Shown here one piece after another: positions 8,172-54,128 of a DNA stretch of 64,000 nucleotides; within the stretch, counting starts at the first letter, position 1, and every line of letters starts with the position of its first letter. Under the pieces are notes generated by a model, which was given only the letters and a program-made list of their open reading frames with translations, was not told the origin of the DNA and ran no database searches. The stretch is taken from assembly GCA_013177825.1 (NCBI GenBank), contig JABLXX010000001.1:520936-584935 (forward strand), written 5' to 3'. The position numbers were made by a program, and so were the translations under genes. This DNA is from Syntrophaceae bacterium. Its GTDB lineage: Bacteria; Desulfobacterota; Syntrophia; Syntrophales; PHBD01.

Positions 8172-8209
8172 GGGGGGCGGATATCCAATCCGTCCCCCAT
8201 CCTTTTTTC
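8172..8209 (+). terminator. Rho-independent terminator after the TsaC-like gene
   Basis: An 11-bp GC-rich stem (8172-8182 with 8188-8198, one G-U pair, 5-base loop) followed by CATCCTTTTTTCT. It starts 19 bases after the stop codon. Its sequence is repeated in inverted orientation at 8594-8633. Confidence 0.85.
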
Positions 8210-8231
8210 TCTTTCTTTCTCTTCGCATCAT

Positions 8232-8545
8232 GGCGCGGGGGCTGCCACGGGGACTCCCGCCGTCGCGAAAACGTTTCCGCTCTTCGCCTTCTGAAACCGA
8301 AGAGTCTGGGGTCCGGAAACGTTTTCCAATTGCTCCTCTGGGAACCCCCGGTCGCGCCCCCGCGAACGTTGGTCGGGGAGTGGGACTTCCCGGAGCGCGA
8401 ATAGCGGCTTTTTCGGGGCACCCTGCCGTCGCAGCGCAGCGCCCGCAAAGTCATCTGTCTCTACGCCGCTAGGCGCGAGTTATGACTTTGCAGCGGAGCG
8501 AGACGCTGCAGGGTCGAAAAAACGCTTCTGAGCGCGAGGGAAGCC
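8232..8545. repeat. ~315-bp structured intergenic repeat, copy A
   Basis: A 314-bp element whose 5' 36 bases and 3' 219 bases recur at 53655-53971 (2 and 9 differences respectively). Between them lies a copy-specific 59-base block that forms a perfect 13-bp hairpin (8267-8279 with 8314-8326) with an inner 7-bp stem (8280-8286 with 8298-8304). Flanks pair around it (CGCGGGGGC 8234-8242 with 8356-8364). The 3' part folds as nested stems: 8421-8430 with 8502-8513 (2-base bulge), 8445-8454 with 8482-8491, and 8464-8467 with 8472-8475. I do not recognise it as a known RNA family. It occupies most of the 513-base gap between convergent genes. Confidence 0.85.
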
Positions 8546-8593
8546 CTGTCCCACATGCGAGCCCCCATCGGCGCCTGATTTCTGTAAAAAAAG

Positions 8594-8633
8594 GGAAAAA
8601 TAAAGGAGGGGACGGATGGGATATCCGCCCCCC
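8594..8633 (-). terminator. Terminator for the zinc-ribbon DUF3426-like gene
   Basis: Read on the minus strand, a GGGGGGCGGAT/ATCCGTCCCC stem (8608-8617 with 8623-8633) is followed by CTCCTTTATTTTTCCC. It lies 34 bases past the stop of the gene ending at 8667, and is almost the same sequence as the terminator at 8172-8209, inverted. Confidence 0.75.
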
Positions 8634-16062: not shown

Positions 16063-16159
16063 TTTGCCGATCCCCCCCGGCCGCGCCCCCGCGACTGGTC
16101 TGCCCGTACGGGACACGGGGGCTCCCGGGAGTGCGACGGCCGATGGATATATTTTTTGG

Positions 16160-40029: not shown

Positions 40030-40063
40030 GGCGCTGGGGGCTGCCACGGGGATTCCCGCCGTC
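40030..40063 (+). repeat. 5' fragment of the ~315-bp structured repeat (copy C)
   Basis: The first 34 bases of the element (GGCGCTGGGGGCTGCC onward) are present; the match ends one base before the stop codon of the DUF523 gene at 40065. Three or four differences to copies A and B. Confidence 0.75.
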
Positions 40064-53624: not shown

Positions 53625-53654
53625 CTACGACGCCGCAGCATACTTTTCTTCCAG

Positions 53655-53971
53655 GGCGCGGGGGCTGCCACGGGGGCTTCCGCCGTCGCGGCCTTTTTTC
53701 CCGCGATTTGTCGTCGACGGCCAGGAAGGCTGGAGGGATGGGAAAAAAGTCCCAATTGCTCCTCTGGGAACCCCCGGTCACGCCCCCGCGAACGTCGGTC
53801 GGGGAGTGGGGCTTCCCGGAGCGCGAATAGCGGCTTTTTCGGGGCACCCTGCCGTCGCAGCGCAGCGGCCGCAAAGTCATCTGTCTCTACGCCGTCCGGC
53901 GCGAGTTATGACTTTGCAGTGGAGCGAGACGATGCAGGGTCGAAAAAACGCTTCTGAGCGCGAGGGAAGCC
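53655..53971. repeat. ~315-bp structured intergenic repeat, copy B
   Basis: Matches copy A (8232-8545) in the first 36 and last 219 bases (2 and 9 differences). The intervening 62 bases differ from copy A but form a perfect 10-bp hairpin at the same place (53693-53702 with 53740-53749). Paired segments kept in both copies: CGCGGGGGC 53657-53665 with 53782-53790; 53847-53856 with 53928-53939 (2-base bulge); 53871-53880 with 53908-53917; CGCC/GGCG around the variable loop GTCC at 53894-53897. Confidence 0.85.
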
Positions 53972-54001
53972 TCTCTCACACGTATTTCCATGAATCAACC
54001 C

Positions 54002-54121
54002 GGCTGTTCAAAAAGGGTTGAATGCAAGGCGCCCGAAATCCCGGTCCGCGAGGCGTACCAAGTGGTACGTCGAGCGGAGCGGGATGAGGGCAACGCAGCA
54101 GACGCCCTTTTTCAACAGCCG
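54002..54121. repeat. Palindromic intergenic repeat, full copy
   Basis: A 120-base imperfect palindrome centred at 54061-54062: outer arms GGCTGTT.AAAAAGGG pair with the 3' end, and the centre is CGTACC, AAGT, GGTACG. Half copies lie at 39932-39988 and, more degenerate, at 16911-16951. It lies 30 bases after repeat copy B and seven bases before the queA stop. No transposase is present; it resembles REP or MITE-like elements. Confidence 0.8.
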
Positions 54122-54128
54122 TTCACAG

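Follow-up and report, generated by a model that had tools for sequence, protein, structure and literature searches.

REPINs require a RAYT transposase, and integron attC sites combine conserved arms carrying unpaired positions with a variable terminal hairpin. REP families are divided into subfamilies with alternative complementary stem residues, they form mosaics, and some of them lie inside longer palindromes (PMC3733652). Template switching, which produces simultaneous double changes, keeps stems perfect (PMC8794818). The repeat described here lies in a window of 64,000 nucleotides from a Syntrophaceae bacterium (GCA_013177825.1, contig JABLXX010000001.1, positions 520,936 to 584,935). The initial annotation had described two copies, A and B, in which conserved flanks enclose a block of unrelated sequence that nevertheless forms a hairpin in both, and had considered a functional hairpin module, a recognition tag or a cassette insertion site. 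This two-copy view was true to the observation but too narrow, as the real unit is larger and consists of two modules, named here M1 and M2; at copy A, the unit also includes two flanking inverted terminator hairpins, named here T. The features are listed below in window coordinates.

8172–8198, plus strand: left T hairpin, terminator-like with a T run; 11-bp stem with 8 G-C pairs
8231–8365, plus strand: M1 copy A, nested palindrome of ~135 bp (alignment of 34 own-genome copies; covariance model; z −5.0)
8267–8326, plus strand: M1 tip hairpin block of copy A, family GAAAACG (z −4.6; family relatives all inside M1)
8372–8560, plus strand: M2 copy A, palindromic repeat of greater age that is present across the order
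8607–8633, minus strand: right T hairpin, also terminator-like; its stem is nearly that of 8172–8198, with which it forms an inverted pair
53654–53791, plus strand: M1 copy B (z −2.6)
53690–53752, plus strand: M1 tip hairpin block of copy B, family GGAC/GGCC
53798–53981, plus strand: M2 copy B

The flanks around the block are highly conserved between the two copies. In copy A, the hairpin was found as annotated, with a 13-bp edge stem and an inner 7-bp stem within the 60 bases of the block (−17.5 kcal/mol), and none of 200 shuffled sequences was equally stable. The 10-bp stem of copy B (53693–53702 with 53740–53749) is also present, and up to the block edges (63 bases) there are 12 pairs and one C·T mismatch, but taken alone this block did not differ significantly from shuffled sequence (z −1.5; 14 of 200 shuffles equally stable), and the case for a hairpin therefore depends on the whole M1 family. 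The two blocks have diverged, although they are not wholly unrelated as first thought, since a stem core of CCGC and TTTCC..GGAAA is common to both; they are members of diverging tip families. Fragments of M1 without the rest of the module, a left arm and a right arm, lie at 40030–40063 and 16074–16094 of the window.

M1 is a palindromic module of ~135 bp with the variable block at its tip. It is a gene-less, intergenic repeat that also occurs without M2. A search of the own genome for the repeat gave 50 BLAST matches, and a covariance model built from the left part of the repeat matched 41 times in the own genome and 42 times in HGW-Deltaproteobacteria-19, the sole congener sampled. A few of these matches are weak or represent the other strand of a palindrome already counted. 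M1 is thus present in about 40 copies per genome in two genomes of one genus; the assembly of the relative is fragmented, with several copies at the ends of contigs. Among the 60 relatives searched, only two genomes of one genus were positive, and no M1 was found outside it. A virus origin was rejected, as an exact arm pattern had no match among viral contigs.

M1 is predicted to fold into a three-helix rod, in which the outer GCGCGGGGGC arms are followed by a middle helix and, at the end, by a tip stem of ~12 bp with a loop of ~35 nt. In the arms it is the sequence that is conserved, down to a C·A mismatch of the middle helix that is kept in most of 67 copies. The tip stem, on the other hand, is conserved mainly as structure, a variable triplet and its complement being set in a constant GGA...TTTTCC frame (GGA-NNN-TTTTCC paired with GGAAAA-N'N'N'-TCC), and nine perfect stems were counted by eye in the stem list. 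When blocks without an insert from the two genomes were folded against shuffled sequences, 52 of 64 had a z below −2 (median −3.2). The tip stem contains 168 double-changed cells as opposed to 55 ± 8 after shuffling, a value not reached in any of 500 shuffles, and it also lies well above all slid controls. Shuffling does not remove the relatedness of the copies and the slid controls keep it, but the alignment was fitted to the structure; an unfitted alignment of the 34 own-genome copies gave the same result. Across 67 distinct copies, 97% of the tip pairs are standard, with changes on both sides at six tip pairs. In nearly every copy, structure is conserved and sequence replaced, as the initial annotation proposed, and compensatory changes support this. 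The two outcomes that it named as refuting apply in part. Non-pairing blocks do exist, as the edge stem is mostly lost where the loop carries a ~107-bp insert, and one deletion derivative has likewise lost most of it. A single shared hairpin that is merely mutated describes the copies within a family, but there are several families.

The loop insert is a separate palindromic repeat, named here P (GGCTGTTCAAAAAGG...CCTTTTTCAACAGCC), and is carried by five M1 copies of the own genome and two of the relative. The similar edges of these inserts suggest one event copied along with the host M1. P also adjoins copy B at 54001–54125 of the window, and at this locus the relative has only the right half of P left.

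M1 resembles the mosaic repeats of the REP and BIME type, including the REPs tagged with GTAG or CGTC (PMC3733652), in being an intergenic, many-copy palindrome with alternative complementary stem residues and a mosaic arrangement. It differs from them in size, ~135 bp as opposed to 20–40 bp, and in its ~12-bp tip stem with a ~35-nt loop, so that M1 falls outside the strict GTAG/CGTC definition of a REP. The GTAG tag was not seen in M1; most copies have a CGTC motif two bases ahead of the tip stem, without the other features of CGTC REPs. In the broad sense, the arrangement is a BIME-like mosaic, as many intergenic palindromic modules occur in varying order and orientation, and M1 looks like a new branch of REP-type repeats. 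Like REPINs, it is palindromic, dispersed and gene-less, but a search with the Y1_Tnp profile for the RAYT/Y1 transposase gave no match in either M1-bearing genome, while 45 of 60 relatives were positive. RAYT was consequently rejected as the mobiliser of M1. Two M2 copies in other genera share contigs with Y1 genes, but do not flank them.

M2 is a separate palindromic module of ~190 bp. It is older than M1 and occurs across the order, its core being present in other genera where M1 was not found. Double changes were observed in 17 of 29 predicted pairs across the order, which shows that M2 follows the same principle as the M1 tip, changed letters with kept pairing, at a greater age. In one other genus (G051; L057, L070), a hairpin GGGGACAGATTTCAAATCTGTCCCC in the style of the T hairpins directly abuts the M2 core. 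In another (G029), a first look gave 177 candidates for a ~55-bp part of M2 only (query 262–320 of the copy A repeat), which suggests a putative amplified sub-repeat.

At copy A and many other loci, M1 and M2 are enclosed by two inverted terminator-like hairpins with the core CGGATTTSAAATCCG or a variant of it. This core was found at 30 sites of the own genome and at none in the reversed control, and the hairpins are often paired ~350–460 bp apart around M1-M2. They also occur singly without M1, and the pair at copy A carries a variant of the core. Their outer arms differ from site to site, with complementarity kept. On contig 5, two T hairpins enclose a stretch of 3.2 kb, which was considered as an autonomous parent and rejected, as its reading frames did not appear transposase-like by eye.

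The 58 distinct tips fall into three large families, followed by a number of small ones. The families are common to many copies and were seen only within M1; the tips of copies A and B, searched in the own genome, gave no good match beyond M1 copies, and the eleven further matches of the copy B tip (83–90% identity) all lie within M1. The idea of the tip as a mobile tag with sites of its own was rejected on these grounds. Orthologous loci of the two genomes were identified by their flanks. Copy A and its ortholog are only 46% identical in the tip, as opposed to 94% in M2, 87–92% in the arms and 80–82% in the flanks, and the locus pair L011/L125 shows the same pattern. Replacement of the block, which the initial annotation could not distinguish from drift on two copies, is supported by these loci, where the M1 family has changed while the flanks and M2 stayed. 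At other pairs the family was kept (L013/L113, 98%; L015/L124, 95%; L030/L127, 100%), and at L021/L120, L025/L122 and L153/L134 the orientation of the module is reversed relative to conserved flanks. Tip and arm alleles are mostly linked, with some recombinants, and the exchanged unit is therefore usually M1 or more and not the tip alone; these conversion tracts are based on two genomes. At one locus, where the relative has T-M1-M2-T, the own genome has just one T hairpin, an empty/filled pair that could equally have arisen by insertion or by excision. Between orthologous loci, M1 or the whole composite thus differs in family, orientation or presence. Of the features of a MITE, terminal inverted repeats and a target-site duplication, inverted T hairpins flank many composites, and no clear target-site duplication was found. 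Copy B was rejected as an insertion absent from the relative, where half of the neighbouring palindrome remains; it is apparently missing there by deletion. At L012/L123, L016/L129 and L019/L144, only one of the flanks could be matched, and the element lies in reverse orientation to that flank. This would be expected if M1 and M2 copies were rearrangement breakpoints, a reading limited by the contig ends of the relative.

We consider it probable, at roughly 60%, that M1 is a non-autonomous mosaic repeat of the REP/BIME kind, with a tip that is maintained as DNA structure and with modules that are swapped through recombination. M1 would be a mobile or formerly mobile DNA repeat, in which the arms would carry a sequence signal and the tip would only have to fold into a hairpin when the DNA is single-stranded or cruciform. 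Judging from their distribution, the copies may have spread from few masters, and dispersed copies may overwrite or flip one another by recombination, in which case the copy-specific tips would be subfamily markers and not tags. The hairpin in nearly all uninterrupted copies, the covariation and the nine perfect stems, the lack of a clear G·T excess, the conserved arms and mismatch, the family switches, flips and empty/filled pair at orthologous loci, the restriction to one genus among the relatives searched and the precedents in REP families speak for such a repeat; against it, no mobiliser and no clear target-site duplication were found.

The main rival is template switching, or quasipalindrome correction, which could yield covariation without any function. 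The tip hairpin would then be functionless, its complementarity restored by copying, and the tips would be neutral variants of an old inserted palindrome. We regard this as possible, though doubtful. Double changes and perfect stems are what template switching is known to give (PMC8794818), and the tip agrees with hairpins maintained in this way in its compensatory changes and in the rarity of G·T intermediates (9 of 803 cells). However, the unpaired positions of the middle helix, such as the C·A mismatch, are conserved and persist uncorrected, the two ends of the stem, GGA and TTTTCC, stay constant around a variable middle, and inverted loops, sought as a footprint of template switching, gave nothing convincing among 58 tips.

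An unlikely explanation is that M1 and M2 act as RNA, either as a small RNA, as a stabiliser of mRNA 3' ends or as part of a bidirectional terminator region. The folds are stable, terminator-like hairpins flank the composites, and copy A lies between convergent genes. If a transcript were selected, G·T mismatches should outnumber A·C mismatches on its strand. The counts were 9 and 6 in the tip and 3 and 10 in the outer helix, without a clear excess of G·T, and there is thus no sign of selection on a transcript; this points away from RNA, to a DNA-level structure or a mutational mechanism that rewrites one arm from the other. Moreover, all orientations with respect to the genes are found among the copies (gene orientations by a heuristic), copies are flipped at orthologous loci, and no Rfam family scored above the gathering score in the window, the matches at copy A being weak and below threshold. 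The two terminator-like hairpins of copy A, recognised by pattern match only, face inward from both flanks, and read-through into M1 should therefore be low. Since they could shield copy A from read-through, a transcriptional role of these hairpins is also conceivable.

Returning to the mosaic repeat, we see only a slim chance that M1 is still active, moved or exchanged by some enzyme that reads the arms and requires a tip hairpin whose mid-stem sequence is free, and with the variable triplet serving as a compatibility code for exchange partners. Weakest of all, and scarcely credible, is the reading as a site of cassette insertion or a recognition tag, in the manner of attC or a labelled target, which the conserved arms with unpaired positions, the variable terminal hairpin and the five own-genome inserts at the same place in the loop recall, but M1 copies are dispersed single sites, no integron integrase exceeded the curated cut-off, no gene cassettes or arrays were seen, the insert is another palindromic repeat, the swapped tract is approximately the whole of M1 or more with tip and arm alleles mostly linked, and the tips belong to a few graded families common to many loci instead of being unique. 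The block forms the apical hairpin of M1, and neither the tag nor the insertion site of the initial annotation was borne out.

M1 is a natural case in which the letters of a hairpin are replaced and the hairpin is kept, in about 70 copies, in two genomes and with comparable orthologous loci. It adds a REP/BIME-like mosaic from a lineage that the REP survey (PMC3733652) does not name. It makes testable whether compensatory change in palindromic DNA arises from selection or from template switching during replication, and how palindromic repeats persist without a Y1 transposase.
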